DNA of 64,000 nucleotides from Pigmentiphaga kullae (GTDB lineage Bacteria; Pseudomonadota; Gammaproteobacteria; Burkholderiales; Burkholderiaceae_B). The stretch covers positions 1,178,001-1,242,000 of the forward strand of contig NZ_SGXC01000002.1 of the NCBI RefSeq assembly GCF_004216695.1, read 5' to 3'. Below the pieces are notes generated by a model. It was not told the DNA's origin. It worked only from the letters and a program-made list of their open reading frames with translations, and ran no database searches. Made by a program: the position numbers and the translations under genes. Positions 281-17,568 of the stretch are shown here, one piece after another (within the stretch, counting starts at the first letter, position 1; each line of letters begins with the position of its first letter).

Positions 281-2464
281 ATGGCAGCCCGCCCAACCGT
301 ACCCGTTCGACTCAAACGACTCAGCCTGTGCCTTGCCGCAGCCCTGCCCCTGTCCGCCCTGGCGCAGCAAGCACCAGCCGTGCTGCCGGAAATCACGGTG
401 AACGCCTCCCCCCAGGGCGAAGACCCCGCCACCACCGAAGGCACCGGGTCGTACACCACGACAGGCCCCTCCCGCACCGCCACCCCGCTGGGCCTGAGCC
501 TGCGCGACACGCCCCAGTCGGTGACGGTGGTCACGCAGCAGCGCTTCGAAGACCAGAGGCTGCAAACCATCACCGACGTGCTGAACAACACCACGGGCGT
601 CTCGGTGAACCAGTACGAGACCCATCGCGCCCAGTTCAACGCCCGCGGCTTCGACATCAACGCGCTGATGGTGGACGGCGTGCCGACCACCTGGGACCAG
701 CCCTGGAGCTCGGGCGAGATCTTCAGCAGCCTGGTCACCTACGACCGCGTGGAAATCGTGCGCGGCGCAACCGGGCTGACCACCGGCTCGGGCAACCCTT
801 CCGCGGCCGTCAACATGGTCCGCAAACGGGCCAGCAGCAAGGAATTCACCGGCGCCGCGGAACTGGACCTGGGCAGCTGGAACCAGCGCCGCGGCATGGT
901 CGACCTGTCCACGCCGGTCAATACCGCCAAGACGGTGCGGCTGCGCGTGGTGGGCGAACATGCCGAACGCGACAGCTGGGTCGACCGGCTCAGCAACAAG
1001 AACCAGACGCTGTTCGCCACGCTGGAAGCCGACCTGACCAGCAACACCCTGCTGACGGCGGGCCTGAGCTACCAGAAGACCAAGGCGCGCGGCCCGATGT
1101 GGGGCGGCCTGCCGCTGTGGTACAGCGACGGCACCCCGACCAACTGGGACCGCTCCAAGAGCGCGGCGGCCGACTGGACGCGCTGGGACACGACCTACCA
1201 GACGTACTTCGCCTCGCTGCAGCACCGCTTCGACAACGACTGGCGGGTCAAGCTCAGCTACAACCGCAGCGAACGCAAGGCCGACTCCTACCTGCTCTAT
1301 CTGTCGGGCGCGCCCGACCGGACGACCGGGCTGGGCATGACCACCTTCGCCGGCTCCTATGACGTCAAGACGACGCAGGACGACGTGGCGGTGCAGGCCG
1401 ACGGTCCGTTCGAGCTGCTGGGACGCAAGCATCAGCTGGCCTTCGGCTACGTCTACGCCAACCAGAAGTTCAACGCCGATGCCCGCGCGGCCAATCCCGC
1501 GGGCGGCCTCGCGCCGGACTTCAACGCCTGGAACGGCACCTTTCCGGAACCCAGCTGGGGCGCTCCCACCTTCTACGAGAACGGCACTACCACCCAGCAG
1601 GCCATCTACGGCGTCGCGCGCTTCAATGTGACCGATCCGCTCAAGGTGATCCTTGGCGCCCGGATGACGAACTACCGGAAGAAAGGCGACGTGGCCTACA
1701 GCGGCGCCTACGAGGTCAAGAGCGACAACGAGCTGACGCCCTACGCCGGCGTGATCTACGACCTGAACGACCAGTACTCGCTCTACGCCAGCTACACCGA
1801 CATCTTCCTGCCCCAGAACGCGCGCGACGTGACCGGCCGCTACCTCGACCCGGTCAAGGGCAAGGCCATGGAAACGGGCATCAAGGGCGAGTTCCTGGAT
1901 GGCCGGGTGAATGCCTCCGCGTCGGTGTTCCACATCAAGCAGAACAACCTGGCGCAGCAGACCACCGACACCGTGCCCGGGACCAACCCGCCCGAGACCG
2001 CCTATCGCGCCGTGGATGGCGCGACCAGCAAGGGCTTCGAACTGGAAGTCGCGGGCGAACTGGCCCCCAACTGGAACCTGAGCGCCGGCTACACGCACTT
2101 CCGGGCCAAGGCCGCCGACGGCACGGACGTGAACAGCCTGTACCCGCGCCGGCTGTTCCGCCTGTTCACCACCTACCGCCTGCCGGGCGCATGGAGCGGG
2201 CTGACGCTGGGCGGCGGCCTGAGCTGGCAGGGCAAGACCTACACGCACGCGACGAACCCGCTGGGCACGGTCGAGAAGGTCGAGCAGAAGGACTACGCCC
2301 TGGTCGGCCTGATGGCGCGCTACGAGATCAACAAGCAGATGACCGCGCAGTTGAACATCAACAACCTGTTCGACAAGCGGTACTACGGCATGTTCGCGGC
2401 CTACAGCCAGCTTACCTACGGCGCGCCGCGCAACGTCACGGTCAGCCTGAAGTACAAGTTCTGA
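281..2464 (+). CDS. TonB-dependent ferric-siderophore receptor (FauA/FhuE/FpvA-like)
   Basis: This is an outer-membrane active transporter for a ferric siderophore, energised by TonB. The 727-residue product starts at an ATG behind GAGGGAG. It has a signal peptide of about 26 residues ending ALA, a TonB-box-like EITV near residue 36, a plug domain (about 70-180) with RDTPQSV and VEIVRGATGL, and a 22-strand-type barrel ending in the outer-membrane terminal Phe (LKYKF). Its length matches hydroxamate siderophore receptors such as FauA (about 730). No siderophore biosynthesis genes or signalling extension (FecA-type N-terminal domain) are present nearby, so it may scavenge a xenosiderophore. A Fur box lies just upstream. 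Confidence 0.9.
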   Translation: MAARPTVPVRLKRLSLCLAAALPLSALAQQAPAVLPEITVNASPQGEDPATTEGTGSYTTTGPSRTATPLGLSLRDTPQSVTVVTQQRFEDQRLQTITDVLNNTTGVSVNQYETHRAQFNARGFDINALMVDGVPTTWDQPWSSGEIFSSLVTYDRVEIVRGATGLTTGSGNPSAAVNMVRKRASSKEFTGAAELDLGSWNQRRGMVDLSTPVNTAKTVRLRVVGEHAERDSWVDRLSNKNQTLFATLEADLTSNTLLTAGLSYQKTKARGPMWGGLPLWYSDGTPTNWDRSKSAAADWTRWDTTYQTYFASLQHRFDNDWRVKLSYNRSERKADSYLLYLSGAPDRTTGLGMTTFAGSYDVKTTQDDVAVQADGPFELLGRKHQLAFGYVYANQKFNADARAANPAGGLAPDFNAWNGTFPEPSWGAPTFYENGTTTQQAIYGVARFNVTDPLKVILGARMTNYRKKGDVAYSGAYEVKSDNELTPYAGVIYDLNDQYSLYASYTDIFLPQNARDVTGRYLDPVKGKAMETGIKGEFLDGRVNASASVFHIKQNNLAQQTTDTVPGTNPPETAYRAVDGATSKGFELEVAGELAPNWNLSAGYTHFRAKAADGTDVNSLYPRRLFRLFTTYRLPGAWSGLTLGGGLSWQGKTYTHATNPLGTVEKVEQKDYALVGLMARYEINKQMTAQLNINNLFDKRYYGMFAAYSQLTYGAPRNVTVSLKYKF

Positions 2465-2512: not shown

Positions 2513-3307
2513 CTATGCCGACTCCCTGGCCCGCAATGCGGCGGTCAGTTCATCCGCCGTCTTGCGCAGCGGCTCCAGATAGTTCGCCAGCAACTCCTCC
2601 GCCGACGCCCTTCCCTCGGGCACGCTGATGTTCAAGGCCGCCACGACCTTCCCGGCGCCATCCCGCACCGGCACCGCCAGCGATCGCAGGTTCGGCTCCA
2701 GTTCCTGGTCGACCAGCGCCCAGCCCTGCCCGCCGATCTCCCGCAGCATGTCCAGCAGCAGGTCCGTGTCGACCACGGTGTGGAGGGTATTGCGCGCGGG
2801 CGGCAGTTGGCGCAGCAAGTCCCGCTGCACGTCGACGGGCTGGGCCGCCAGCAAGACACGCCCCAGCGACGTGCAATAGGCCGGCACCCGGCTGCCGACG
2901 GTCCGGCTGACATCGACGATATGGGGATTGCTCCGGATCCGCGCCACGTATACGGCGTAGGGCCCGTCCAGCGTGGCCGCTGAACAGCTCTGGTGCACCT
3001 TCTCGGTCAGCCGCGCCATCAAGGGCCGGGCAACGTCCCAGAACGGATAGGACGACAAATAGGCATAGCCCAGGCTGAGCGCCCGCGGCGCCAGCATGTA
3101 GCGGCTGTCTTCATTCCTGACATAGCCCAGCGAACCCAGGGTCAGGAGGAGGCGCCGCGCCGTGGCCCGATCCAGCGAGGCCTCCTGTGCCAGGTCGGTC
3201 AGCGATCTGCCTCGCGGGTGCCCTCCCAATGCCTCCATCAACGCCAGGCCGCGCGCCAGCGCGCGCACGTAGCTCTGCGGGTCTCTCGATTCCTCGTTCG
3301 TCGTCAT
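2513..3307 (-). CDS. IclR-family transcriptional regulator (PcaR/PobR-like)
   Basis: The 264-residue product starts at MTTNEESRD with AAAGG upstream. A longer in-frame reading to 3394 exists but its extra N-terminus is not IclR-like. Residues about 12-75 form the winged helix (VRALARGLALMEAL, SLTDLAQEASLDRATARR), and the effector domain follows (SCSAATLDGPYAVYVAR, YCTSLGRVLLA, GLAVPVRDG-like LAVPVRDGAGKVVAALNIS). IclR proteins of this subgroup usually activate aromatic catabolism in response to a pathway intermediate. It is divergent from the operon starting at 3441, so it is the likely local regulator. Confidence 0.92.
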   Translation of the reverse strand: MTTNEESRDPQSYVRALARGLALMEALGGHPRGRSLTDLAQEASLDRATARRLLLTLGSLGYVRNEDSRYMLAPRALSLGYAYLSSYPFWDVARPLMARLTEKVHQSCSAATLDGPYAVYVARIRSNPHIVDVSRTVGSRVPAYCTSLGRVLLAAQPVDVQRDLLRQLPPARNTLHTVVDTDLLLDMLREIGGQGWALVDQELEPNLRSLAVPVRDGAGKVVAALNISVPEGRASAEELLANYLEPLRKTADELTAALRARESA

Positions 3308-3349
3308 CTCTGCCTTTCTTGGTCTTCCTGCAAGTGCGGAGCATACCGC

Positions 3350-3379
3350 TTGACAGTCCGGACACACCGCGACCATAAT
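3350..3379 (+). promoter_or_regulatory. Candidate sigma70 promoter for the 3441-13062 operon
   Basis: A perfect TTGACA at 3350-3355 is followed after 18 bp by CATAAT at 3374-3379, about 60 bp before the first gene. Downstream, two near-direct repeats beginning TTTTCA (about 3378 and 3401) and a CACTA/TAGTG pair could be IclR contact sites. The promoter is by consensus match only. Confidence 0.55.
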
Positions 3380-3440
3380 TTTCACTAAACGCACACATTT
3401 TCATCTAGTGCACAATCATAACCGAAGGCGAGGAGACGTC

Positions 3441-4577
3441 ATGGAGACAGTGTTCAGTCCCCGGCAACAGGAATTGGTCGACAGAGTCGACGAACTGGTT
3501 TTTTCGTCCATATCCAAGCGCGCGGCGGAACTGGACCAACGGGGCGAGTTTCCCGATGCCGATTTCCGCGACCTGCATCGCGAAGGGCTGTTGCTGTCGA
3601 CGCTGCCGCGCAAGGATGGCGGCCTGGGATTCGGCTTCGATGGCGACGATCCGCTTTCCTACTTTCTGATCATCGAGCGGCTGGCCATGGGCAATCCATC
3701 GACGGCCCATTGCTTCCAGGTCCACAGCAACGCCGCGCAGATCGTCCGGGCATTCGGCACCGACGAACAGGTTGCGCGCTTTCTCGCGCCCACCAAAGAA
3801 CATGGCCGGCTGCTGGTGGGCGCCGGTTCGGAGCCGGGCGGCGGCCGTGGCGGCACGGTGGCCCGTCCCGTGCGTGGCGGCCTGTCGATCACCGGCGTCA
3901 AGCACTACGCCACGAACGCTTCGCGCAGCGACTGGCTGACGGTACATGTGCGCAACGAGCAGACCAACCTGCTGGAGACGGTGGTGGTCCACCGGGAAAG
4001 CGCCGGACTCGACATCGATGAAGTGTTCTGGAACCCCGCGGGAATGCGGGCCTGCGTCAGCCCCCTGCTGACCTTCAAGGACTGCTTCGTGCCCGACGAT
4101 TGCGTACTCGCGCGTCCCGGCGCGTTCCTGACCGAACATTGGCTGGGCAAGATCAACTTCGGCTTCACCGCCAACTACCTCGGAACGCTGCAGGCCATGT
4201 TCCAGTGGACGGTGGACTACATGCGGCAACGCGGCCAGGTCGATACCCAGGTCTACCAGATGTACGTCGGCGAGATCCGCGCCAGGATCGACGCCGCCCG
4301 GCTGCTGTATTACCACGCCGTCAACCTGGCCCGCCATGACATGGTCCAGGGCTTGCTCAAGAGCAACGAGGCCAAGTACCTGGCCGTCGATTGCCTGCAG
4401 CGATTCAAGGAAGTCGCCGGCCAGCTGGTCGGCAGCACGGCCTTCTTCAGATCCTTTCCGCTGGAACGCATGATGCGCGACATGGATGTCCATTCGCTGC
4501 ACCGCCGGCACCACTTCGGCGCGGTCATGGTCGGGCAGGCCGAGCTCGGCCTGCCTTTCGAACTGGCGCACTCCTGA
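3441..4577 (+). CDS. Acyl-CoA-dehydrogenase-fold flavin monooxygenase (DszC/SfnC-like)
   Basis: The 378-residue protein has the full ACAD fold: an N-terminal helical part, a middle beta domain (SEPGG, LSITGVKHYATNAS, then W-L-T-V), and a C-terminal four-helix bundle with VAGQLVGSTAFF and a terminal HSLHRRHHFG. The G-x-K-x-Y/F-x-T-x-A loop and the late HR-HH segment resemble reduced-flavin-dependent monooxygenases such as DszC more than CoA-dependent dehydrogenases. A flavin reductase gene lies in the same operon (7646), which fits a two-component monooxygenase. The start is set by AGGAG at 3430-3435; an upstream in-frame ATG at 3408 lacks this. The substrate is unknown. Confidence 0.8.
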   Translation: METVFSPRQQELVDRVDELVFSSISKRAAELDQRGEFPDADFRDLHREGLLLSTLPRKDGGLGFGFDGDDPLSYFLIIERLAMGNPSTAHCFQVHSNAAQIVRAFGTDEQVARFLAPTKEHGRLLVGAGSEPGGGRGGTVARPVRGGLSITGVKHYATNASRSDWLTVHVRNEQTNLLETVVVHRESAGLDIDEVFWNPAGMRACVSPLLTFKDCFVPDDCVLARPGAFLTEHWLGKINFGFTANYLGTLQAMFQWTVDYMRQRGQVDTQVYQMYVGEIRARIDAARLLYYHAVNLARHDMVQGLLKSNEAKYLAVDCLQRFKEVAGQLVGSTAFFRSFPLERMMRDMDVHSLHRRHHFGAVMVGQAELGLPFELAHS

Positions 4578-4600
4578 TCCGACGCAAAGGAAACCCATCG

Positions 4601-5401
4601 ATGACATCCGAATACAACACCCCCCACCCCGTGTCCTGGTCGAGGGCATGGCAAACGGACCCGCTGGGCGGCGCGCTGAGCGACCAATGGTCCGAGCTGA
4701 TCGCGTCATTCCGCGCCCGCGCGCCGCTGGGCCGCGAAGCGCCGCCGCTGCGAGGCGAAACCCTGGACGGCCCCGCCTTCGACCTGGACGCCTACCGGGG
4801 GCGCAAGTCCGTACTCGTGGTCTTCGGCAGCCTGGCGTGCCCGCCGTGCGTGACGAACATCCGCACCACCACGCCCAGCCTTGTTTCGCTCTACGGACAG
4901 TATTCGCAGGCGGTGGAATTCTGCTATGTCTATACGCGAGAAGCCCATCCCGGCAGCCGCATCGGCGCCCATGCTTCGATGGACGAGAAGCGCCGCAATG
5001 CCGCCCGGCTCCGCGAGCAGGAGCCCTTCCCGTTTCCGCTGCTGATCGACGCGCTGGACGGCGCCAACCAGCTCGCCTGGGTCGACCCGCAATTCAACAA
5101 TCCGGTGTTCCTGGTCAATCGCGCGGGCATCGTGGTCTACAAGTCGGCGTGGCTCGACGCCTCGGAACTGCCCCAGGTCCTGGACGATGCCGCGCTGTGG
5201 GACGCCAGGTCCCCCACCGAAAAGACGATCAAGAAGACGTATAGCGAACGCATCCGCCCGCTGCGCGAGCCCTTCGACCCCACCGCCAACGCCCGCATCA
5301 AGAAACTGATGGACTTCATCGGCCTCGAACAACGGGCGATGGGTCCCATCCCCGGCGTGGAAGCGGAGCGCGCCGAGCCCGGGGCAGGAGACAAGGCATG
5401 A
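4601..5401 (+). CDS. Thioredoxin-fold redoxin, iodothyronine-deiodinase-like family
   Basis: The 266-residue protein carries an AhpC/TSA-like thioredoxin fold (about residues 45-190). SLACPPCVTN gives a CxxC redox site near residue 85, and YTREAHPGSR corresponds to the Y-x-x-E-A-H-P signature of the deiodinase-like family. FPLLIDALDG and NPVFLVNRAGIVVYK follow. The ATG at 4601 has AAAGG 10 bp upstream; the open frame extends upstream only because of high GC. The gene lies 23 bp after the monooxygenase gene and its stop overlaps the dioxygenase alpha start (ATGA). A role in reductive or redox steps of the pathway is an inference. Confidence 0.75.
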   Translation: MTSEYNTPHPVSWSRAWQTDPLGGALSDQWSELIASFRARAPLGREAPPLRGETLDGPAFDLDAYRGRKSVLVVFGSLACPPCVTNIRTTTPSLVSLYGQYSQAVEFCYVYTREAHPGSRIGAHASMDEKRRNAARLREQEPFPFPLLIDALDGANQLAWVDPQFNNPVFLVNRAGIVVYKSAWLDASELPQVLDDAALWDARSPTEKTIKKTYSERIRPLREPFDPTANARIKKLMDFIGLEQRAMGPIPGVEAERAEPGAGDKA

Positions 5402-6642
5402 ACGCCACGACATCCCCGCCGGACACCGCAAGGTCCGTACGATCGGCCGACCCGGTGCTGCAAGGTCTCGCGGCCGGCCCGCTCTACGTGGACCGCCGGT
5501 GCTACACCGACCCCCGCATCTTTGCGCTCGAACAGCGCGATATCTTTGCCCATACCTGGCAATTCATCGCCCACGACAGCGAGCTGAAGCAGGCTGGCGA
5601 GTTCCGTACCGCGGAGCTGGCGGGCGAACCCGTCATCGCGATCCGCGGCGCGGACGGCCAGCTGCGGCTGTTCCTGAACACCTGCCGCCACAAGGGCACG
5701 CTGCTCGTCGACGCGCCGGCCGGCCAGTGCGAAAAGATGAAATGCCCCTACCACCACTGGACCTACGACACGCAAGGCGGCTTGATCAGCGTTCCCAAGG
5801 TCGAAGCCTACGGCGACCGATTCCACTTCGCCGAGAACGGCCTGGTCCCGGTTGCCCGTTTCGAAGTCCATGCCGGCATGTGGTTCGGCTGCCTGGACCC
5901 CGACGCGCCGCCGCTGGTGGCCTACCTGGGCCTGGCCGCGCCCCACCTGGCCGAGATCGGCGCCTATGCGGGCCAGGAGCTCGTGGCGCTGGGCGCCTAT
6001 CGCTACAGCTACGACGCGAACTGGAAGCTGCTGATGGAGAACACGCTCGACGACTATCACGCCGAGTATCTGCACGACTACGCGTTCACGCAGCGCGCCG
6101 CGCTGTTCCAGATGGAAGGAACCAGCGGTTTCCAGGAAAAAGAGGGGTCGCGCTTTTCCCTGGACCTGGGCATCCACGGGGCGTTCGACCAATGCGACGA
6201 CATTCGCACGCTGACGATTCAAACGCTTCGCGAAAGACGTCTCTACCTGGGCATCTTCCCGAGCTTCATCGCCTTGTACAACCCGGTCTGGGACGTCACC
6301 AGCTTCCGGATCATCGAGCCGGTCAGCGTAGACAAGACCAATGTGCTGACCTATTGCCTGGCCCCCGTGTCCGCCACCGAGGAACAGCGCCGGGCGATCG
6401 GCGAACGCTTCCATTATTCCTGGGGCCCCGGCGGCCGGGCCGGTGTCGACGACATCCTGGTCTTCTCCCGCGTCCAGAAAGGGCTGCAGGCCCGGGCCGG
6501 CGGCCGCATCAACATCGGCCGCGGCATCGACAGGACCGACCCCCAAGGCGGCCCCGCCGACGACCACGCCGTGCGGGCGCTGTGGAAAGGCTGGCGGCAG
6601 TACATGGGAGTGGACGAAGCCGCGGGAGCGCCGACATGCTGA
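5398..6642 (+). CDS. Rieske ring-hydroxylating dioxygenase, large (alpha) subunit
   Basis: The 414-residue product has a Rieske [2Fe-2S] site (CRHKG ... CPYHHW, near residues 98-120) and a mononuclear iron site in ENTLDDYHAEYLH (Asp plus two His, near residues 216-228). It is typical in size for alpha subunits of benzoate/biphenyl-type dioxygenases, which insert both atoms of O2 into an aromatic ring. It overlaps the redoxin gene by 4 nt and the beta-subunit gene by 7 nt. No ferredoxin or ferredoxin reductase is encoded in the operon, so electrons must come from proteins encoded elsewhere. Confidence 0.93.
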   Translation: MNATTSPPDTARSVRSADPVLQGLAAGPLYVDRRCYTDPRIFALEQRDIFAHTWQFIAHDSELKQAGEFRTAELAGEPVIAIRGADGQLRLFLNTCRHKGTLLVDAPAGQCEKMKCPYHHWTYDTQGGLISVPKVEAYGDRFHFAENGLVPVARFEVHAGMWFGCLDPDAPPLVAYLGLAAPHLAEIGAYAGQELVALGAYRYSYDANWKLLMENTLDDYHAEYLHDYAFTQRAALFQMEGTSGFQEKEGSRFSLDLGIHGAFDQCDDIRTLTIQTLRERRLYLGIFPSFIALYNPVWDVTSFRIIEPVSVDKTNVLTYCLAPVSATEEQRRAIGERFHYSWGPGGRAGVDDILVFSRVQKGLQARAGGRINIGRGIDRTDPQGGPADDHAVRALWKGWRQYMGVDEAAGAPTC

Positions 6643-7085
6643 CATTCGACGACGACACCCGGGTCGACCCGGAAGTCACCGCGCTGCTCGATGAATATGC
6701 CTGCCTGCTGGACCGCAGGCGGGGAACCGCATGGCTGGAGCTGTTCACCCCCGACGGCTACTACCTGGTGGCACGCGAAGCCGAAATCGAACAGGGCAAC
6801 AACGTCCTGATCATCGGCGAAGACCTCAAGCGGCTGCGCGCCCGCATCGTCTCCGGGGCGGAGCGCGACCGCCGCCGCAGCGTGCACACGGTCGGCGGGG
6901 TGCGCTGCAACCACGATGCCACGCACACGACGGCCTCCTTCACGGTCTGGCTGGACGGCAGGCCCTCCTATTGCGGCGTCTATCGGATGGCGCTTGCCCG
7001 GCACGACGGCAAGCTGCGCATCCGCCACTGCGAAGTCGTGCTGTTCGGCGACATCGTCCATACCCCGATATTCCTGCCCGTGTAA
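6636..7085 (+). CDS. Ring-hydroxylating dioxygenase, small (beta) subunit
   Basis: The 149-residue product has the SnoaL/NTF2-like cone fold of dioxygenase beta subunits: an N-terminal helix (ALLDEYACLLDRRRGTAW), LFTPDGYYLVAREAE, an R-R-R-S-V-H-T turn and strand pairs ending in FGDIVHTPIFLPV. It is structural, pairing with the alpha subunit in an alpha3beta3 hexamer. The start at 6636 overlaps the alpha gene. A much longer open reading of the same frame upstream is a GC artefact. Confidence 0.88.
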   Translation: MLTFDDDTRVDPEVTALLDEYACLLDRRRGTAWLELFTPDGYYLVAREAEIEQGNNVLIIGEDLKRLRARIVSGAERDRRRSVHTVGGVRCNHDATHTTASFTVWLDGRPSYCGVYRMALARHDGKLRIRHCEVVLFGDIVHTPIFLPV

Positions 7086-7092
7086 GGCCGCC

Positions 7093-7659
7093 ATGTCCAC
7101 GCCCGATCTCGAATTCAGCCACGTCGGCATCCATGTACGCGACATGGACACGATGGTGGGCTTCTATCAGCGCGTACTGGGGCTGGTCCTGACCGACCGC
7201 GGCCATCTGCCCGGCCGCGAGCTGGCTTTCATGAGCCGCAACCCCAGGGAGCATCACCAGGTGGTCCTGGTCAGCGGGCGGACCGGCGCCGAGGACGACA
7301 AGGTCATCAACCAGATTTCGTTCCGCGTCGCCTCGCTGGAACGCTTGCAGGAAATGTTCGGCTGGCTTCAGCGCGAGTCCGGACCGAGCCGCTTTCGCGC
7401 CATCGACCACGGCAATGCCTGGACCCTGTACTTCCACGATCCCGAGGGCAACCGGCTCGAACTCTTCGTGGATACGCCCTGGTATGTCCAGCAGCCGCGC
7501 TCCGAGCCGCTGGACCTGACCGAACCGGCCGACCGCATCCGTGCCCGGACGCAGGCATGGTGCCGTGCCGACCCCAGTTTCGCGTCCGCGCAAGCCTGGC
7601 GGGCCGATCTGAAGGCGCGTATCGAACAGGGCATGGGGGGTTCGCATGTCGGCCGATGA
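7093..7659 (+). CDS. VOC/glyoxalase-fold protein, possible extradiol ring-cleavage dioxygenase
   Basis: The 188-residue protein contains paired beta-alpha-beta-beta-beta modules. FSHVGIHVRDMDTMVGFYQ-like residues 8-26 supply the first metal-ligand His, EHHQVVLV a second, and PEGNRLELFVD the Glu of the 2-His-1-carboxylate site. It resembles small type I extradiol dioxygenases and glyoxalases. Directly after ring-dioxygenase subunit genes, ring cleavage of a catechol-like product is plausible. The C-terminal 60 residues are helical and not shared with glyoxalase I. Confidence 0.8.
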   Translation: MSTPDLEFSHVGIHVRDMDTMVGFYQRVLGLVLTDRGHLPGRELAFMSRNPREHHQVVLVSGRTGAEDDKVINQISFRVASLERLQEMFGWLQRESGPSRFRAIDHGNAWTLYFHDPEGNRLELFVDTPWYVQQPRSEPLDLTEPADRIRARTQAWCRADPSFASAQAWRADLKARIEQGMGGSHVGR

Positions 7660-8239
7660 AAACCGGATCAGTACCGATTTCCGCCGCGCGCTGCGCGGAT
7701 TCGCGGCCACGGTTTCCATCGTTTCGGCCCGCGACCGCGCGGGCAACCACGGCATCACCGTGACGGCCGTATCTTCGGTGTCGATGGATCCCCCGTCCCT
7801 GCTCGTGGTCGTGAACCGTTCCGGCAGCATGCACGCGGCCTTGGCCGAAGGCGAGCGATTCTGCATCAACGTCCTGGGTACCGAACAGGTCGAGCATTCC
7901 CGCCTGTTCGGCAAATCCATGCCCATGGACGAACGCTTCGAACACGGCGACTGGCGGCTGTCGGCCGACGACGTGCCCTACCTGAACGAAGCCCAGGCGA
8001 ACATCTTCTGCCGGCGGGTCTCCCAGGTGGACGTCGGCACGCACACCGTTTTCGTCGGAACGGTCTATCGGCTCGCCATCGGCGACGCCATCTCGCCCTT
8101 GATCTATCTCAACGGCGCATACCTGAGGCTGGGCGACGAACCCGGCGCCGGGCTCGTCGCCGCCTTCCCTCCGGCCGCTGCCGCGGTCCGGCCGTCCACC
8201 AGCCACCCGAGTCTCCATCATGCCCACCGACGAGTTTGA
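7646..8239 (+). CDS. FMN-binding flavin reductase (HpaC/DszD-like)
   Basis: The 197-residue protein has the flavin reductase split-barrel pattern: FRRALRGFAATVSIVSA, HGITVTAVSSVSMDPPSLLVVVN, FCINVLGTEQ and a closing PLIYLNGAYLRLG. Members reduce FMN or FAD with NAD(P)H and pass it to a partner monooxygenase. The obvious partner is the DszC-like protein encoded at 3441. The gene overlaps its upstream neighbour by 14 nt. The last 30 residues are an Ala/Pro/His-rich tail that overlaps the rhodanese gene. Confidence 0.9.
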   Translation: MSADENRISTDFRRALRGFAATVSIVSARDRAGNHGITVTAVSSVSMDPPSLLVVVNRSGSMHAALAEGERFCINVLGTEQVEHSRLFGKSMPMDERFEHGDWRLSADDVPYLNEAQANIFCRRVSQVDVGTHTVFVGTVYRLAIGDAISPLIYLNGAYLRLGDEPGAGLVAAFPPAAAAVRPSTSHPSLHHAHRRV

Positions 8240-9890
8240 ATTCATCGACGCGTCCGGACTCGAAGCGTTGCTGCTGGGGGACCAGCGATTCGCCCTGTTC
8301 GATGCCCGGGACGAAGGACTGTTCGCCAAATCCCACATGCTGTTCGCCTGTTCGCTGTCGCTCGCCGACCTGGAGGCGCGCCTGTTCCGGCTGGTTCCGT
8401 GGCAACGGACCTTGATCGTCCTGACCAGCGACGAAGGAGACGGCATGGCGGCACGCGCGGCGCGGCGCTGCCTCGGGCTGGGCTATACGAACCTGCGCCT
8501 GCTGCGGGGAGGCAACCAGGCCTGGCAGCGTCACGGCAAGTCGCTGTTCAAGGGCATACATGTTCCAAGCAAGGCCTTCGGGGAACTGGTCGAGGCCCAC
8601 TATCACACGCCCATGATCGAGGCGGCCGAGCTGCATGGCCTGATGGCCAGCGGCGCCAAGGTTCGCATCTTCGATTGCCGCCCGCCCAATGAATTCCACC
8701 GCATGAGCCTGCCCACCGCCCGCAACTGCCCCGGGGCCGATCTGCTGTCGCGCGTGCCGGCCATGGTGGATCATGACGAGACCATCGTCATCAACTGCGC
8801 TGGCCGCACGCGCGGCATACTGGGCGCGCAGTCCTTGATCAGCGCCGGCGTCCGCAACCGGGTGGTGGCGCTGAAGAACGGGACCATGGGCTGGCACCTG
8901 GCGGGATTTCCACTGGAATCGGGCCGCAGCGACCTGGTCGAGCCCGTCGACCCGGCACGGCTCGACGGCATACGGCGGATGGCCGCGAACCTGCGGGAGC
9001 GATTCGACATTGCCGTGGTGGACATGTCCGCCTGGCTGTCGCGGGCCGAAGGCGAACCCGCAAACCGTCCGCTCCTGCTGGATGTGCGCGGGCCGTGGGA
9101 ATACCAGGCCGGCCACCTTCCCGGCTCTCGCAGCGCGCCCGGCGGCCAACTGCTACAGGCAACCGACTACTACGTCGCCGTCCGCAACACGCCCCTGCTG
9201 CTGGCCGACGACGACGGCATCCGCGCCAGCATCACCGCCGCCTGGCTGCTGCAAATGGGCTTGCGCGACGTCAGCGTGCTCGATCATCGCGACATTTTCA
9301 GCCACATGACCGAGTCCGGCACGGCCTGCTGGCTCCCGGCCCGCCTGATCCCTCTTGTCGATACCGTCGATGCCCCGCAACTGGCACGCGACCTGGAAGG
9401 CGGCACTACCCTGGTACTCGATCTGGGCAGCAGCGACGACTACTACAAGGGCCACATCCCCCGCTCCCGCTTCGTCATGCGTTCCCGGCTGGCTCACAGC
9501 GTGCCCGCGCTGCCGCGGCTCCCTTGCGTCACCCTGGTTGCCGACGACGCGGTCACGGGCGCGTTCGCGGCCCGGGAAATCACCGAGCTCTACGGTGCTC
9601 CGGTCCGACTCCTGCAAGGCGGGCGCCAGGCCTGGCGCGAGGCGGGCCTGCCGATGCAGACCGGGCTGGAAGATGCCGTCGATCCTCCTGAAGACATGTG
9701 GCACATCCCCTCTTCGCCGCTGGGCGGACTGGATTCCGCCATGCGCGACTACCTGTCGTGGGAAATCGACCTGGCCGCCCAGGTCGCCCGCGAGCCAGGC
9801 ACCCGCTACCTCGTGGGGGACCGGCCGCCCGCTTCGCCGCGCACTCCCGAAGCCCCCACACCGGCGAATGCCGCCGGATCCCGCAACTAG
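8220..9890 (+). CDS. Four-domain rhodanese-like protein (sulfurtransferase)
   Basis: The 556-residue protein contains four consecutive rhodanese modules, at about residues 8-105, 128-235, 260-365 and 375-480. Typical features include LFDARDE, IFDCRPPNEF, LLDVRGPWEYQAGHLPGS and LDLGSSDDYYKGHIPRS, each followed by an LL/GG-x-x-AW closing helix. Only the second module has an active-site cysteine (Cys193 in INCAGRTRG). The equivalent loops of the others read TSDEGDG, ADDDGIRA and ADDAVTGA and are cysteine-free. Sulfur transfer or sulfane binding is therefore likely limited to module 2. The gene overlaps the flavin reductase by 20 nt, tying sulfur chemistry to this oxygenase operon. Confidence 0.85.
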   Translation: MPTDEFEFIDASGLEALLLGDQRFALFDARDEGLFAKSHMLFACSLSLADLEARLFRLVPWQRTLIVLTSDEGDGMAARAARRCLGLGYTNLRLLRGGNQAWQRHGKSLFKGIHVPSKAFGELVEAHYHTPMIEAAELHGLMASGAKVRIFDCRPPNEFHRMSLPTARNCPGADLLSRVPAMVDHDETIVINCAGRTRGILGAQSLISAGVRNRVVALKNGTMGWHLAGFPLESGRSDLVEPVDPARLDGIRRMAANLRERFDIAVVDMSAWLSRAEGEPANRPLLLDVRGPWEYQAGHLPGSRSAPGGQLLQATDYYVAVRNTPLLLADDDGIRASITAAWLLQMGLRDVSVLDHRDIFSHMTESGTACWLPARLIPLVDTVDAPQLARDLEGGTTLVLDLGSSDDYYKGHIPRSRFVMRSRLAHSVPALPRLPCVTLVADDAVTGAFAAREITELYGAPVRLLQGGRQAWREAGLPMQTGLEDAVDPPEDMWHIPSSPLGGLDSAMRDYLSWEIDLAAQVAREPGTRYLVGDRPPASPRTPEAPTPANAAGSRN

Positions 9891-9948
9891 CCCCCCTTGC
9901 CTGGGCCGCACGCGTCACCGGGCATCGCTCACACACCAGGAGACAGCC

Positions 9949-10947
9949 ATGCACAAGAAGCAGACGACCGCAGTGACCCGGCGCGAGGCGATCGCGCGCA
10001 TCGCCTGGACGGCAACGGCCGCGGCGCTCCCCTTTCCGGCGCTGGTCCGTGCCAATGGCGGCCCCGTCCGCCTGGTCATCGCCTCGACCCCCGGGACCGG
10101 CCCCGACACCATGTCGCGCCTGATGCAGCCGCTTCTGCAATCGCGCTGGGACCGCACCGTGATCGTGGAGAACAAGCCCGGCGCCGGCGGCGTCATCGGC
10201 ATCGATACGGTCGCCAAGTCCGCGCCGGATGGCGGCACCTTGATGCTGCAGACGTCAACCATGTTCCTGTTGCCGTACTTCTACAAGAACATTCCCTTCG
10301 ACCCGGTCAAGAGCTTCCAGCCCATCTCGCAGGTAGGATGGAGCACATTCGCGCTCGTCGTGAACGACAGCGTTCCCGCCAGCGACCTGCCCACGCTCAT
10401 ACGGTGGCTCGCGGCGGGCGGCGGGAAGATCAGCTATGCCAGCCCGGGCAACGGCACCGAGAACCATCTGTTCGGAGAATTGTTCAAGCAGCAGGCGGGC
10501 GTGGAAATGATGCACGTGCCCTATCGCGGCACGGCCAATGCCATCCAGGACCTGCTCGGCAATCAGGTGGCCCTGATGTTCCTGCCCATCGCGACCGCCA
10601 ACACCCATGCCAAGACCGGCAGGCTGCGCATCATCGGCTGCACCAGCAAGGACCGCTTTCCTCTGCTGCCCCAGATTCCCTCGCTGCAGGAACAGGGGCT
10701 GGCCGGCTTCGACTTCAGTGTCTGGTACGGCGTGTGGGGCCCCGCCGGCATGCCTGCCAATATCGTCTCGCAATACAACGAGGGCATTCGCGGCGTGCTG
10801 GCCAGGCCCGACATCGTCAAGCAATTCGGCGAACAAGGCTGGGCCGTGAAGTCCGGCTCCCCACAGGAGCTCGACGCGCTCGGCCGCCAGCAATACGCCC
10901 GATGGGGAGAGGTCATCGAACAATCCAAGATCGATACGGGGGTGTGA
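9949..10947 (+). CDS. Bug-type (TTT family) solute-binding protein with twin-arginine-like signal
   Basis: The 332-residue periplasmic receptor starts at an ATG after CCAGGAGA. Its N-terminus has TRREAIARIAW and a hydrophobic stretch ending ALVRANG, resembling a Tat or mixed signal. The mature part shows the Bug hallmarks: PGTGPDTMSR, NKPGAGGVIGIDTVAKSAPDGGTL, and a late VWGPAGMPANIV. Bug proteins bind carboxylated organic compounds for TctAB transporters or for signalling. No TctAB genes are near. Its place inside the operon suggests it recognises the pathway substrate. Confidence 0.9.
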   Translation: MHKKQTTAVTRREAIARIAWTATAAALPFPALVRANGGPVRLVIASTPGTGPDTMSRLMQPLLQSRWDRTVIVENKPGAGGVIGIDTVAKSAPDGGTLMLQTSTMFLLPYFYKNIPFDPVKSFQPISQVGWSTFALVVNDSVPASDLPTLIRWLAAGGGKISYASPGNGTENHLFGELFKQQAGVEMMHVPYRGTANAIQDLLGNQVALMFLPIATANTHAKTGRLRIIGCTSKDRFPLLPQIPSLQEQGLAGFDFSVWYGVWGPAGMPANIVSQYNEGIRGVLARPDIVKQFGEQGWAVKSGSPQELDALGRQQYARWGEVIEQSKIDTGV

Positions 10948-10949
10948 CC

Positions 10950-11693
10950 GTGAGCGAGTCGATTGCCGACGCATTCGGCGGACGTCCGGTCTGGCTGGTC
11001 GGCGCCACCGGCACGCTGGGACAGGCCATGGCACGTCTGCTGTCGCAACGCGGGGCGATACTCGCCCTGTCGGGACGGCGCGCGGCCGAACTGGAACAGT
11101 TGGCGGCCGGCCTGCCGGGCCGGGCCATCGCCGTCCCTGTCGATCTGCTGGACGAAGCAAGCGTGAATGACGCCGCGCGGAGCATCAAGCACAGGCTGGG
11201 CGCGGCCGGCTCCCTGGTCGTGTCAGTGTCCATTTCCGCGTTCGGCGAATTCCTTGAATTGCCCGAAGCCAGTTTCGCTGCGGCCATGGACACCAAATAC
11301 CTGGGCGCGCTGCGCGCCATGCGTGCCGTGCTGCCGGACATGATCGCGCAGCGCTACGGCCGCATCGTCACGCTGTCCGGCGGCAGCGGCAGCCGGCCAC
11401 GGCCGGTGCACCTGCCCGGCGGAGCCGCCAACGCCGCCCTGGAACTGCTCTCGCGCGGCGCCGCCATGCGCTATGCCCGCGACGGCATCCGCGTCAACGT
11501 CGTCGCCCCCGGCCCCATCGCCTCGCCGCGCATGCAGGCCATCGTGGCGGCCTCGGACGCTGCCGGCCAGGGCGACGGCGACCGCCCCGCCGGCCAGCCC
11601 CTGGATGTGGCCGAGGCGGTCTGTTATCTCTTGAGCGAGCGGTCGAATTTCGTCAATGGCACGGTACTGAAAGTCGATGGCGGCACCCACTGA
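10950..11693 (+). CDS. SDR-fold protein lacking the catalytic Tyr/Lys
   Basis: The 247-residue product starts at GTG 2 nt after the Bug stop. The nucleotide-binding GATGTLGQA, the strand GRIVTLSGG, IRVNVVAPGPI and the closing NGTVLKVDGG are all SDR features. Where classical members have Y-x-x-x-K, the sequence reads GGAAN before AALELL, so both catalytic residues appear to be missing. It may be a non-catalytic binder or use different chemistry. The gene overlaps the MmgE/PrpD gene by 17 nt. Confidence 0.82.
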   Translation: MSESIADAFGGRPVWLVGATGTLGQAMARLLSQRGAILALSGRRAAELEQLAAGLPGRAIAVPVDLLDEASVNDAARSIKHRLGAAGSLVVSVSISAFGEFLELPEASFAAAMDTKYLGALRAMRAVLPDMIAQRYGRIVTLSGGSGSRPRPVHLPGGAANAALELLSRGAAMRYARDGIRVNVVAPGPIASPRMQAIVAASDAAGQGDGDRPAGQPLDVAEAVCYLLSERSNFVNGTVLKVDGGTH

Positions 11694-13062
11694 AACTTCC
11701 CTCTCGCAATGGCTGGGCGACCGGTTGGCAGCGGCGGCCCGAACCGGGCTTCCCGCCGACGCCATGGGGAGCGCCCGCCGGTTGATCCTCGACACACGCA
11801 TGGTGGCATGGGCGGGGGCGGCACAGCCCGACGTCATCGCCGTGCGCGAACTGACGGTGCGCAACGGCGGCGCGGCGCAAAGCAGCATCTGGTCAGGGCC
11901 CTGGAAGGTGCCCGCGGCCGAAGCCGCATTCGTGAACGCGCTCAGCGCCTCGGCCCTGGACTATGACAGCCTGCACGCCAACGTGCATCCCGATGCCATC
12001 GTGGCGGCCGCGGCCTGGGCCGTGGGCGAGTCGGTCCGGGCCACGGGGCGCGAGGTTTTGCAGGCCTACGCCCTGGGCAGCGAACTCGTCTGCCGGCTGG
12101 CCGATGCCGTCTCGGGACCGCAGAAGGGCTGGACCATCGGCGCCGTCCTTGGCACCTTCGGCGCCGCCGGCGCCGCCGCGCTGCTGATGCGGCTGCCTCC
12201 GCAACAAATCACCCATGCCTTGGGACTGTGCCTGTCCATGGCCGCCGGTTCGCAACAAGCCAACGTCGAACAGGTACTGGCCAAACGCCTGCAACCCGCG
12301 CTGGCTGCCCGCTCCGGTGTCCAGGCCGCCCTGCTCGCCCAGGCCGGCATGACCGCGCCGGCCCAGGCCTTCGAGGGGCGATTCGGACTCTGGAACCTGT
12401 ATTTCCCAAGTGATCGCGAACGGTTCTCGGATCGATTCGGCGTCCGTTTCTCGCTGCGGGAAACCGGCCTGAAGAAGTACCCGGTCTGCGCCTGCAGCCA
12501 TGCCGCGCTGGACGCCCTCCACGCCGTACTGCGGCAAGGCGGCATCCGGCTCGACGACATCGCCAGGATCGACGCGCGTATCTCGCCTTTCATGGACAGG
12601 CTGGTCGGCGGCGCGTTCTCCCCCGCCGCCCATCCTCAAGTCACGGGACAATTCTCGCTGCGCTACGGGTTGGCCTCGATCGCGCTGCGCGGCCGGCTGG
12701 GCCTGGCCGAGATCGCGCCGGCGGCGGTACTCGACCCCGGAATCGCCGGGATCGTGGATCGCATCCACCTCGCCGTCGACACCCGCAACCCCGGAGAGCT
12801 GGCGCCGGCCACGGTCCGATTGACGCTGCGCTCGGGCCAGGCCATCGAACACACGGTGGCAACCATGCCGGGCGGTCCGGCTGCCCCCATGAGCGTCGCC
12901 GAACTCGAACGGAAGTACCTGGAATGCGCGGCCGTGCAGGCGGCGGAAAATGCCCCGTCCCTGGTCGCCGGGGAAATCGCCCGATTGGCCAGCATGGACC
13001 AGCTCGACGATATCAACCACTGGGCAGCGGCCGGGAATGCTAAGCCGGTCCGTGGTATCTGA
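11677..13062 (+). CDS. MmgE/PrpD family protein (2-methylcitrate dehydratase-like)
   Basis: The 461-residue product matches the family in length and layout: an all-helical domain with ALSASALDYDSLHANVHPDA, SELVCRLADAV and the G-rich IGAVLGTFGAAGAAALL, then a small C-terminal alpha/beta domain (YPVCACSHAALDAL). Characterised members are 2-methylcitrate and cis-aconitate enzymes and an iminodisuccinate epimerase. Many catabolic operons contain uncharacterised paralogues acting on carboxylated intermediates. It is the last gene of the rightward operon. Its TGA abuts the stop of the convergent permease gene with no spacer. Confidence 0.85.
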   Translation: MAAPTETSLSQWLGDRLAAAARTGLPADAMGSARRLILDTRMVAWAGAAQPDVIAVRELTVRNGGAAQSSIWSGPWKVPAAEAAFVNALSASALDYDSLHANVHPDAIVAAAAWAVGESVRATGREVLQAYALGSELVCRLADAVSGPQKGWTIGAVLGTFGAAGAAALLMRLPPQQITHALGLCLSMAAGSQQANVEQVLAKRLQPALAARSGVQAALLAQAGMTAPAQAFEGRFGLWNLYFPSDRERFSDRFGVRFSLRETGLKKYPVCACSHAALDALHAVLRQGGIRLDDIARIDARISPFMDRLVGGAFSPAAHPQVTGQFSLRYGLASIALRGRLGLAEIAPAAVLDPGIAGIVDRIHLAVDTRNPGELAPATVRLTLRSGQAIEHTVATMPGGPAAPMSVAELERKYLECAAVQAAENAPSLVAGEIARLASMDQLDDINHWAAAGNAKPVRGI

Positions 13063-14469
13063 TCAGAACCCGCCGAACATCGTCCCCAGCGCGATGACCA
13101 GCACCAGCGCCGGCAGCGGAAAAAGGATCGTCACCGCGGCGATGTCTCCATACGACTGCCGGTGCGTCAGCTTGCAGATGGCCAGGAGCGTGATGATGGC
13201 GCCGCAGTGCGGCAAGGTGTCCATGCCGCCGGCGGCCATCACGGCCACGCGGTGCATCAGCTCGGCGCTGATGCCCGCCTCGTGGGCCATGCGCAGGTAG
13301 TCCTGTCCCAGCGTCTGCAAGGCGATGCTCAAGCCGCCCGAGGACGAACCGGTGATGCCCGCCAGCACGTTCATCGCCACCGCCTCGGAGATCAGCGGAT
13401 TGCCCGGCGCCACGTTCAGCACCGCGTCGCGGATGATGGCGAACCCCGCCAGGCCCGCGATGATCGCGCCGTAGCCGACCTCGGATGCCGTGTTGAACAA
13501 TGGCAGCATGAACCCGAACACGCCCTGGTTGATGGTGTTCTTCAGGTTGCTCCAATGCTTGAGCCGCAGCAGCACCAGCGCCGTGCAGGCCGTGGCCAGC
13601 GCGATGATCAGCGCCCACAGGCCGACGATCTTCTGCGGCGCCAGATCGGGAAAGCGCTGGGCCAGGAACGAGAAATCCACCGCCGGGAACACCACGTAGG
13701 TGAACAAGGCGTTGATCCCCACCACCAGCAGCAGCGGCAGCAAGGCCAGCGGCACGGGCATGACCGACCACCGGGCGTCCTGCTCCGCCTGCGCGGGCGC
13801 GCCCTCCCCGGCGTCGTCGTGGTCGCCGTAGCCTTCCCCCGCGGCATGGGCGGCCGCGGCGCGGCGCCGCAGCCACCAGGAGCCGCCGCCGAACATGATC
13901 GCGGCCGCGATGATGCCCAGGCCGGGCGCGGCGAAGACGTTGGTGCCGAAGTACGGGATGGGAATGGCGTTCTGAATGGCGGGCGTGCCGGGCAAGGCGG
14001 TCATGGTGAAGGTGAAGGCGCCCAGCGCGATCGTGGCGGGGATCAGCCGCTTGGGTATCCGCGCCGCCCTGAACAGGTCGACCGCGACCGGGTAGATCGC
14101 GAAGGCCACCACGAACAGGGACACGCCGCCATAGGTCAGCAGCGCGCAGGCCAGCACCACGGTGACGATGGCGTGCTTCTCGCCCACGCTGGCGACGATC
14201 CAGCGCGACAGCGTATTGGCGGCCCCCGAGTCGGCCATCAGTTGGCCAAACAGCGAGCCCAGCAGGAAAATAGGCAGGAACTGCAGCACGTAGCCGCTCA
14301 GGGCGGTCATGAACGTGCCGGTATAGATGGGCAGCAGCAATGCCGCGTCCCCGGACAGCACCACCGCCAGCGCGCCCATCAGCGGCGCCAGCAGCAGCAC
14401 GGTCACGCCGCGATAGGCCAGGTACATCAACAACGCCAGGGAAACGACGATGGCGAGCGTGCTGGTCAT
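13063..14469 (-). CDS. GntP-type gluconate/organic-acid permease
   Basis: The 468-residue inner-membrane protein has about 12 hydrophobic segments. It includes the GntP-like motifs YGGVSLFVVAFAIYPVA, FTMTALPGTPAIQNAIP and SSGGLSIALQTLG, plus a late VMAAGGMDTLPHCGAIITLL. A central hydrophilic loop (about 215-245) is Asp/Glu/Ala rich. The family imports gluconate or other hydroxy acids with protons. The start at 14469 has AAGGAA just upstream. It is the last gene of the leftward oxygenase operon, 86 bp after the isochorismatase-type gene. Confidence 0.88.
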   Translation of the reverse strand: MTSTLAIVVSLALLMYLAYRGVTVLLLAPLMGALAVVLSGDAALLLPIYTGTFMTALSGYVLQFLPIFLLGSLFGQLMADSGAANTLSRWIVASVGEKHAIVTVVLACALLTYGGVSLFVVAFAIYPVAVDLFRAARIPKRLIPATIALGAFTFTMTALPGTPAIQNAIPIPYFGTNVFAAPGLGIIAAAIMFGGGSWWLRRRAAAAHAAGEGYGDHDDAGEGAPAQAEQDARWSVMPVPLALLPLLLVVGINALFTYVVFPAVDFSFLAQRFPDLAPQKIVGLWALIIALATACTALVLLRLKHWSNLKNTINQGVFGFMLPLFNTASEVGYGAIIAGLAGFAIIRDAVLNVAPGNPLISEAVAMNVLAGITGSSSGGLSIALQTLGQDYLRMAHEAGISAELMHRVAVMAAGGMDTLPHCGAIITLLAICKLTHRQSYGDIAAVTILFPLPALVLVIALGTMFGGF

Positions 14470-14555
14470 GGGATTCCTTCGGGCAAGGCCTGACAAAGCC
14501 CGATCATCTCATACCGACGCGACAGTCTCCGGTCCGGGCCCCAGGCGCCGCCCTT

Positions 14556-15233
14556 CTAGGCCAGCCCCCGCAGGTAGGCCAGCGTTTCCTCCAGGCCGAC
14601 CACGTCGCCGTATTTGGTGTCGAGATCGAACAGGCTTTGCGCGTGCGCCGCGGCCGAGCGGTCGCCCACGCCTTCCTGCACCACCATGGGGCGGAACCCC
14701 AGTTGGCAGGCGTCCACGGCGGTGGCGCGCACGCAGCCGCTGGTGGACGTGCCCGTCAGGATCAGCGTATCGACACCCAGGTTCTGCAACCGGGACGCGA
14801 GATCGGTGCCGAAGAAACACGACGCGTATTTCTTGACCAACACGATGTCGTGCTCCCGGCGATGCAGCCGCGCATCGACGTGGTGGCCGTCGCCCTCGGC
14901 CGCCAGGGACATCGTTCCCTTCTGCTTGATCGCCCACAGCCCCGCGTCGCGCATCTGCGGATCGTCGTAGCGCACGCAGGTGAAGATGACCGGCACGTCC
15001 TTCCCGGCGGCGACGTCCAGCAAGGCGTTGGTGGCGGCGACCTGGGCCGAGAGATCGGCGCCCAGCGGACGCGACGGATCGGTGAAGCCGTTGGTCAGGT
15101 CCACCACCATCAGCGCGGGCCGCCGGCCGAACCCCAGCCGCACGGCGAAACCGCGTTCGTGGAAGAAGGCGTAATCCGGGTGCTGCGAAATATCGATCAA
15201 TTGCTTCGTCCTGGCAGGGTCGATGTCCGCCAT
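14556..15233 (-). CDS. Isochorismatase-family cysteine hydrolase (maleamate/N-carbamoylsarcosine amidase-like)
   Basis: The 225-residue product shows the catalytic triad of the family: Asp in MVVDLTNGF, Lys in VLVKKYASCFF and Cys in GTSTSGCVRATAVDA. The SGCVRATA variant and the N-terminal extension resemble amidases such as NicF and N-carbamoylsarcosine amidase rather than true isochorismatase. Hydrolysis of an amide after ring cleavage of an N-heterocycle is a reasonable inference with a Rieske oxygenase in the same operon. I chose the ATG at 15233 (MADIDPAR) over one 33 nt upstream. Confidence 0.85.
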   Translation of the reverse strand: MADIDPARTKQLIDISQHPDYAFFHERGFAVRLGFGRRPALMVVDLTNGFTDPSRPLGADLSAQVAATNALLDVAAGKDVPVIFTCVRYDDPQMRDAGLWAIKQKGTMSLAAEGDGHHVDARLHRREHDIVLVKKYASCFFGTDLASRLQNLGVDTLILTGTSTSGCVRATAVDACQLGFRPMVVQEGVGDRSAAAHAQSLFDLDTKYGDVVGLEETLAYLRGLA

Positions 15234-15330
15234 TAGATGACGGACCCCTGAAGGCATCCAGAACATTTTTGCTATGCGAGCGGTACGTTTTCGTTATCGC
15301 GACGACGACGCACCGCCTTTCGACCGGCGC

Positions 15331-17558: not shown

Positions 17559-17568
17559 GGATGTGTTC

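Follow-up and report, generated by a model that had tools for sequence, protein, structure and literature searches.

The DNA analysed here is a stretch of 64,000 nucleotides from Pigmentiphaga kullae (the window, to which all unmarked positions refer), and the subject is a run of ten open reading frames, g1 to g10, on the plus strand at 3441-13062. The sequence-only reading had described ten genes, closely spaced or overlapping, behind a divergent IclR gene, and the frames, strands and gaps all proved correct: spacing ranges from -20 to +58 bp, with successive gaps from g1 to g10 of 23, -4, -7, 7, -14, -20, 58, 2 and -17 bp. The divergent IclR-type regulator (2513-3394, minus strand) is PcaR/PcaU/PobR-like and scores 280.7 bits against NCBIfam TIGR02431, under the cut-off of 284.75. 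A pattern scan places a promoter-like sigma-70 site (TTGACA-18-CATAAT, 11/12 match) at 3350-3379 on the plus strand, ending 61 bases before g1; since the region holds 2 such sites versus 1.0 (standard deviation 1.2) in shuffled sequences, the site is only suggestive and is not evidence of function. The G+C content of the ten genes (67.2%) against that of the window (67.3%) gives no indication of foreign origin.

In order, the run encodes an acyl-CoA dehydrogenase (ACAD)-fold protein of a separate subfamily, probably the oxygenase half of a two-component flavin monooxygenase (g1, 3441-4577); a redoxin with a CPPC motif (g2, 4601-5401); a Rieske oxygenase alpha subunit (g3, 5398-6642); a SnoaL-fold or ring-hydroxylating beta-like subunit of 149 amino acids (g4, 6636-7085); a single-domain VOC protein (g5, 7093-7659); a flavin reductase of the RutF/HpaC type (g6, 7646-8239; PF01613, 133 bits); a four-domain rhodanese (g7, 8220-9890; PF00581 in four stretches); a periplasmic Bug/TctC receptor (g8, 9949-10947; PF03401, 228 bits); a short-chain dehydrogenase/reductase (SDR) without Ser-Tyr-Lys (g9, 10950-11693); and an MmgE/PrpD protein (g10, 11677-13062). 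Alcaligenaceae bacterium SAGV5 has the block in the same gene order, with 93.8% identity over 14,988 bases. Summed over the ten genes, 346 of the 506 differences from SAGV5 fall at codon position 3, the weakest signal being that of g5 (12 of 25). This collinearity and third-position excess indicate that the gene run is more than a chance arrangement.

The fold of g1 is that of an acyl-CoA dehydrogenase by Pfam. At the position of the catalytic Glu of that family (YEGT), however, it carries His354-Arg-Arg, and the helix G stretch holds no Glu, so that it lacks the signature of a true ACAD. Cys91 is shared by 11/11 aligned g1 proteins, and His95 and His354 by 10/11 each; judged by its residues, g1 is a member of a separate ACAD-fold subfamily. 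Its top NCBIfam score is to acryloyl-CoA reductase (115 bits, far under the cut-off), followed by 3-sulfinopropionyl-CoA desulfinase (NF042439; 79.3 bits, cut-off 600), and it scores 61.2 bits against SfnB (cut-off 430.9). The earlier label of a DszC-like protein does not fit, as g1 reaches 50.2 bits against DszC (NF043015) where the cut-off is 850. The separate flavin reductase partner that characterizes DszC is nonetheless present in the predicted operon as g6, and because this reductase gene lies in the same operon, the likeliest reading of g1 and g6 together is a two-component flavin oxygenase.

The product of g7 matches PDB entry 1yt8, which we take to be PA2603 of P. aeruginosa, over its full length (E=1e-107), with four rhodanese domains end to end and a Cys loop in domain 2. 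By alignment the predicted catalytic residue is Cys193 (CAGRTR) in domain 2, and the other three domains have no Cys in their aligned active-site loops. The domain 2 motif, CAGRTR or CGGRTR, occurs in 19/19 rhodaneses compared; a Cys is also found in the domain 4 loop of 9/19 and the domain 1 loop of 2/19, not in the window protein. On these grounds g7 is a predicted sulfurtransferase of the 1yt8 type. The family is widespread, with 65 plasmid records at 1e-60, five copies in the P. kullae genome and members in many proteobacterial genera, and no assigned role for four-domain rhodaneses was found in the open literature searched. A paralogous cluster elsewhere in the same genome (L006 8783-14892, G000:C3) holds a rhodanese 44% identical to g7, an MmgE/PrpD protein (45%), an SDR of the same HLPG type as g9 (40%), Bug receptors and an ABC transporter that is SsuABC-like by eye, with no g1 match. 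A second four-domain rhodanese copy in genome G002 (G002:C2:24517-26130) contains an in-frame TAG, the mark of a broken gene or a sequencing error.

To place g1 in context, we searched for its relatives using either g1 itself or a profile built from six of them, never the rhodanese; in each genome, scores were computed for the best few first-look candidates only. Relatives were found in 3/399 genomes of the order at 1e-35, all of which were read, and in five plasmid records at 1e-30, all of which were opened. The six-relative profile at 1e-70 matched 6/268 genomes of the family (P. kullae and G583 included; all read) and 1/398 genomes of the phylum, that of P. kullae itself, so the g1 family appears to be rare. 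With G583/SAGV5 merged with the window, and PBL-E5 merged with Variovorax SRS16 on account of an identical g1 protein accession, there are ten independent loci: the window, G207, G002, G502, G610, G612, Variovorax SRS16, Rhizobium K84, Natrinema and B. multivorans.

At 7/10 of these loci a four-domain rhodanese shares the strand of g1 and lies no more than 5 kb away from it. The gap between a g1 copy and the rhodanese is below 250 bp (aligned ends) in six of the seven, in G610 by way of a second g1 copy; in the window five genes separate g1 from g7. Six genomes searched whole (P. kullae, G207, G502, G610, G612 and G002) contain 12 four-domain rhodaneses, 1-5 each, and from this copy number and the genome sizes we estimate the chance of accidental adjacency at under about 1% per genome. 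Other recurrent partners of g1 are MmgE/PrpD (7/10 loci), SDR (7/10, the G612 match being of 31% only), Bug (6/10) and flavin reductase genes (5/10, four by homology at 1e-6 and SRS16 by two annotated genes), and a degenerate SDR, MmgE/PrpD, Bug and IclR often accompany the g1-rhodanese pair. In G207, G002, G502 and SRS16 the pair stands with a CoA ligase of the PaaK type and a true ACAD (identity to the G207 copy 70-81%), and in G612 and K84 a luciferase-like monooxygenase (LLM) stands beside g1. As for the full gene order, SAGV5 is collinear and the g1-rhodanese pair recurs elsewhere, whereas the redoxin, the Rieske pair and the VOC protein have no match in the other nine g1 loci. Unrelated VOC-fold genes are visible by eye in L018 and L032.

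Several of these loci merit description in their own right. The clusters that we call type A (L018, L019/L021, L031 and L012) combine a PaaK-like CoA ligase, a true ACAD, the rhodanese, g1, an SDR and MmgE, and come from at least two families; all but L012 gave matches to AcnX-like subunits (named by eye). On a B. multivorans plasmid (L054 722-4486) the g1 relative has two TauD/TfdA dioxygenase genes and a class II aldolase gene at its flanks, and Arg at the His354 position. A 'taurine substrate-binding protein' of the K84 locus was considered as a DszB-like candidate and dropped, since inspection by eye showed no signal peptide and a likeness to 4,5-dihydroxyphthalate decarboxylase.

Phylogenies of the two partners differ. 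The rhodanese tree (19 rows) contains two fully supported clades with g1-linked members in both: the type-A and G610 proteins fall in one, and the window and G612 proteins in the other, where the nearest grouping of the window row lacks good support. In the tree of g1 proteins, G612 groups with those of type A (100/99). Since the placement of G612 thus differs between the trees, the g1-rhodanese pair was probably put together more than once, and repeated assembly argues for a functional link between the two proteins.

The surroundings of the rhodanese family point to sulfur metabolism. Ten of the 65 plasmid neighbourhoods were opened, the last three being picked with knowledge of the first seven; stretches of equal size 100 kb away in the same records served as controls for the first seven records only. 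A cysteine/3-mercaptopropionate dioxygenase gene lies beside the rhodanese, or one gene away, in 6/10 opened loci, namely Caballeronia (one gene away), Sodalis, P. largidicola, A. argentinense, A. thermophilum and P. sprentiae. Also nearby are LLM monooxygenases (5/10), TauE/SafE exporters (2/10) and TauD/TfdA dioxygenases (2/10), and none of these four kinds of gene was seen at the Agrobacterium locus. Compared with the controls, thiol dioxygenases and LLM monooxygenases were each found near 3/7 rhodaneses versus 0/7, TauE/SafE near 2/7 versus 1/7, and TauD/TfdA near 1/7 versus 0/7. In the simplest common reading, the rhodanese would handle sulfite or sulfane sulfur as it leaves an organic substrate.

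The remaining products of the run were examined for the residues on which their family names depend. In g3 both metal motifs are intact (Rieske C-x-H...C-x2-H at 96, mononuclear DDYHAEYLH at 218), as in a genuine alpha subunit. The beta-like assignment of g4 is a weak match, with 28.7 bits for SnoaL_4 (cut-off 24) and 22.9 for Ring_hydroxyl_B (cut-off 27). The redoxin g2 has its CPPC motif at Cys80-Cys83 and no signal peptide seen by eye. It scores 30.0 bits against Redoxin (cut-off 26.6), and the description of it as deiodinase-like must be withdrawn, the T4_deiodinase match (PF00837) being sub-threshold at 26.0 bits versus a cut-off of 27.0 and the score against deiodinase NF038285 being 43.9 of 250 bits. 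Cys80 does align with an active-site residue of deiodinase structures, which we take to be the Sec position. A redox role has been guessed for bacterial deiodinase-like proteins (PMC1088965).

The name VOC dioxygenase is likewise too specific for g5. Alignment to 3lm4 gives His10, Gln74 and Glu123 as putative ligands, so that Gln74 stands where the second extradiol His aligns, and the 2-His-1-Glu set of type I extradiol enzymes is incomplete. In g9 the catalytic Ser-Tyr-Lys positions of 3emk are Gly, Gly and Asn, which sets it apart from the classical SDRs, and an SG..HLPG..N motif is found in all six independent g9 copies aligned, g9 included; the subfamily (10950-11693 and relatives) may be a non-redox SDR or one of new chemistry. 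Both MmgE/PrpD Pfam domains of g10 are over the cut-off (164 and 85 bits; cut-offs 32.1), and its nearest solved relative is IDS-epimerase (2hp0, E=3.3e-38).

Relatives of two of the genes unmatched in the other g1 loci, g2 and g3, were also sought. Within the genus, g2 and g3 are present in 2/11 genomes, those of P. kullae and G583. Matches to g2 occur in 2/399 genomes of the order, P. kullae counted, and a contig scan with g2 matched SAGV5 as the sole genome; the closest other relatives of g2 (34% in G298, 30% on a Mycolicibacterium plasmid) are not inside such a cluster. For g3, relatives at E<=1e-45 were found in 2/245 order genomes besides P. kullae, at 29-35% identity. Only 3.3 and 4.2 kb were read around these two: one stretch (L052) held no match to a further cluster gene, and the other (L053) held weak beta-like and SDR-like matches.

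Taken together, these data suggest, with a probability that we put at roughly 55%, that the products of the operon break down an organosulfur compound or scavenge its sulfur, the likeliest substrate being a cyclic or aromatic acid. Directly supported are the gene set, its conservation, the recurrent pairing and the active-site residues; the substrate, the order of steps and the chemistry we infer from gene context. The Bug receptor g8 would present the substrate, and g1 with flavin reductase g6 would oxidise it at or next to sulfur. The sulfur would then depart as sulfite or sulfane sulfur, to be accepted at Cys193 of g7 (for example, sulfite and persulfide giving thiosulfate), while the HLPG-type SDR g9 and the MmgE/PrpD protein g10 may rework the carbon skeleton under the control of IclR. 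Additions particular to this lineage would be the Rieske pair g3/g4, preparing the ring with a reductase acting in trans; the VOC protein g5, acting on a later intermediate; and the CPPC redoxin g2, keeping the sulfur acceptor thiols reduced. An aromatic substrate is plausible, its basis being only the Rieske pair and the type of IclR regulator. The sequence-only reading had proposed removal of sulfur from an organic substrate on the strength of protein names; the removal step now has comparative support from the 7/10 pairing and the 6/10 thiol dioxygenases, and the substrate is still a matter of inference. The cluster would be a variant among those for organosulfur and aromatic catabolism, and its g1-rhodanese pair is the part of most note. 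A bolder proposal, which is possible and on balance doubtful, is that the g1 subfamily and the four-domain rhodanese form an undescribed desulfurisation module, in which an ACAD-fold two-component flavin oxygenase cleaves C-S bonds and passes the sulfur to a dedicated sulfurtransferase of four domains, and which is plugged in beside CoA ligases in the type-A clusters, LLM monooxygenases in G612 or, for ring compounds, the Rieske dioxygenase found here. The recurrent oxygenase partner offers a concrete, testable function for four-domain rhodaneses. If true, this would add a route for bacterial removal of sulfur from organic, perhaps ring, compounds, with a bearing on pollutants of the sulfonated or thio-aromatic kind and on the desulfurisation of fuels.

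A number of observations weigh against an organosulfur route. No rhodanese was matched in the stretches read at 3/10 g1 loci (K84, Natrinema and B. multivorans, the last stretch being cut off by the start of the record 1.6 kb upstream), which implies that g1 chemistry need not release sulfur. Among the ten products, Pfam and NCBIfam reveal no cupin thiol dioxygenase, sulfite exporter or sulfite oxidase, and there is no reductase or ferredoxin gene of the Rieske system's own, although one may act in trans. AlphaFold2 models made without alignments were unusable (mean predicted local distance difference test scores of 38.2 for g1 and 34.0 for g2). The opened rhodanese loci are few and non-random, having been picked for annotation and spread (three come from Azospirillum and two from Paraburkholderia), the gene tables of the plasmids have gaps, and sulfur genes also appear in the controls, one with a TauE/SafE gene and one with an alkyl sulfatase gene. 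In P. protegens, where the PA2602 and PA2603 homologues appear to be one unit, deletion of the PA2603-type gene did not significantly alter levels of 3-mercaptopropionic acid (3-MPA) (PMC12947264). In Advenella, a transporter deletion left growth on mercaptosuccinate wild-type-like; one legend includes the rhodanese in the deleted region, and the text and strain table give the transporter only (PMC5373536).

The rhodanese could instead be a passenger or housekeeping sulfurtransferase in a sulfur-free pathway for an aromatic or heteroaromatic compound, in which g1/g6 hydroxylates a ring carbon and the Rieske pair dihydroxylates. Ring-carbon hydroxylation is the reaction of HsaA and of indole oxygenases, and the intact motifs of the Rieske pair, the PcaR/PcaU/PobR type of the regulator, the phenylacetate-CoA-ligase-like genes near other g1 copies (by annotation in SRS16, elsewhere by eye and homology), the 4,5-dihydroxyphthalate-decarboxylase-like gene (by eye) with another copy, and the three g1 loci without a rhodanese in the stretch read all fit such a pathway. 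We nevertheless consider it rather unlikely, because a passenger is not expected to recur, and the rhodanese is found at 7/10 g1 loci and is drawn from two rhodanese clades.

Two further explanations keep sulfur chemistry and assign it another purpose. Thiol-assisted loss of a non-sulfur group, such as a halide, with g2 resolving the thiol adduct and the rhodanese clearing sulfane sulfur, would make sense of the alignment of Cys80 in the CPPC motif with the deiodinase active-site residue and of the g2 relative in G298 near HAD and alpha/beta hydrolase genes (by eye); it is improbable, given that the deiodinase match is sub-threshold and that g2 is rare in the order and unmatched in the other g1-rhodanese loci. 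Still more improbable is a rhodanese that supplies sulfur for cofactor or iron-sulfur assembly (the Rieske cluster or molybdenum cofactor) of the pathway enzymes. A molybdopterin role has been suggested for a rhodanese protein of V. paradoxus B4 (PMC5373536), but Rieske g3 is unmatched in the other six g1-rhodanese loci, and 0/10 opened rhodanese loci resemble a cofactor operon by annotation. Removal of sulfur from an organosulfur compound is our preferred reading.

Known systems share parts of this arrangement. Desulfurisation of the DszABC/SfnB type employs an ACAD-fold protein with a separate flavin reductase. The operon resembles it in having both, and LLM monooxygenases lie near g1 relatives in G612 and K84, but g1 scores far below the cut-offs and none of the ten genes is of the DszA or DszB type. 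AcdA, the 3-sulfinopropionyl-CoA desulfinase, is similar in its ACAD fold and C-S chemistry, whereas the flavin reductase of the operon points to oxygen chemistry. The Msdo (Advenella) and 3MDO (Pseudomonas) systems also have a rhodanese-related gene near a sulfur-oxidising enzyme; the 3,3'-dithiodipropionate (DTDP) cluster shares TctC/Bug receptors, and the DTDP and 3,3'-thiodipropionate (TDP) pathways share an ACAD-fold protein (PMC5373536, PMC6370202, PMC12947264). After the Msdo gene of Advenella come, in turn, a cystathionine lyase gene and the rhodanese-related gene; deletion of Msdo shows that it is needed for growth on mercaptosuccinate, and sulfite is a product of both Advenella pathways described (PMC5373536). 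Sulfite as a product of Msdo/Mdo (3MDO) catabolism in Variovorax, Advenella and Pseudomonas is a further likeness in those accounts. These systems use a cupin dioxygenase on a free thiol, whereas the operon has a putative ACAD-fold flavin oxygenase and a Rieske pair and no cupin gene. The P. aeruginosa-type four-domain sulfurtransferase is matched over the full length of g7, but the partner of the PA2603-type gene is one for a thiol dioxygenase, unlike here (PMC12947264). For 4,4'-dithiodibutyrate in Rhodococcus MI2, a route to thiol desulfurisation with a flavin monooxygenase and a rhodanese was proposed as a hypothesis from proteome data; it differs in its LLM enzyme, SQR and metallo-beta-lactamase/rhodanese fusion (PMC5157978). 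No published cluster with this gene set was among the matches listed from the open literature, with few subscription journals covered and hence as weak evidence of absence, so the earlier statement that the set matches no pathway stands so far.

The ten genes are themselves the core of a larger conserved block. Genome comparison shows about 21 kb common to P. kullae and SAGV5, with flanks that differ between the two genomes on both sides, so the functional unit may extend to the upstream genes, the permease and the isochorismatase-like gene described below; the label of a ten-gene operon was right about the genes and too small for the block. The upstream part (L042 12293-18146, G000:C2:1172292-1178145) encodes a flavin reductase, a 368-amino-acid LLM monooxygenase, a Bug receptor, an IclR regulator, an alpha/beta hydrolase and a formyl-CoA-transferase-like CaiB/BaiF protein. 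The LLM enzyme, hydrolase and CoA-transferase are named from the SAGV5 copies, to which the P. kullae counterparts were matched at the DNA level. This part is followed by a FhuE-type TonB siderophore receptor gene (281-2464, plus strand; NF007447, 684 bits, cut-off 666), whose link to the operon is putative. On the other side, a convergent membrane permease gene (13063-14496, minus strand), GntP-like by eye, had no Pfam match at 1e-5 and no NCBIfam match at 1e-8; it is succeeded by a gene for an isochorismatase-fold hydrolase (14556-15266, minus strand; PF00857, 110 bits).

Further along the window, at 16521-18555 on the minus strand, a separate 345-amino-acid Rieske oxygenase is encoded next to genes for a substrate-binding protein and a porin (by eye). 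The 6.2-Mb P. kullae genome returned 56 first-look candidates for a Rieske alpha query, six of which were scored, hinting at a large Rieske repertoire.

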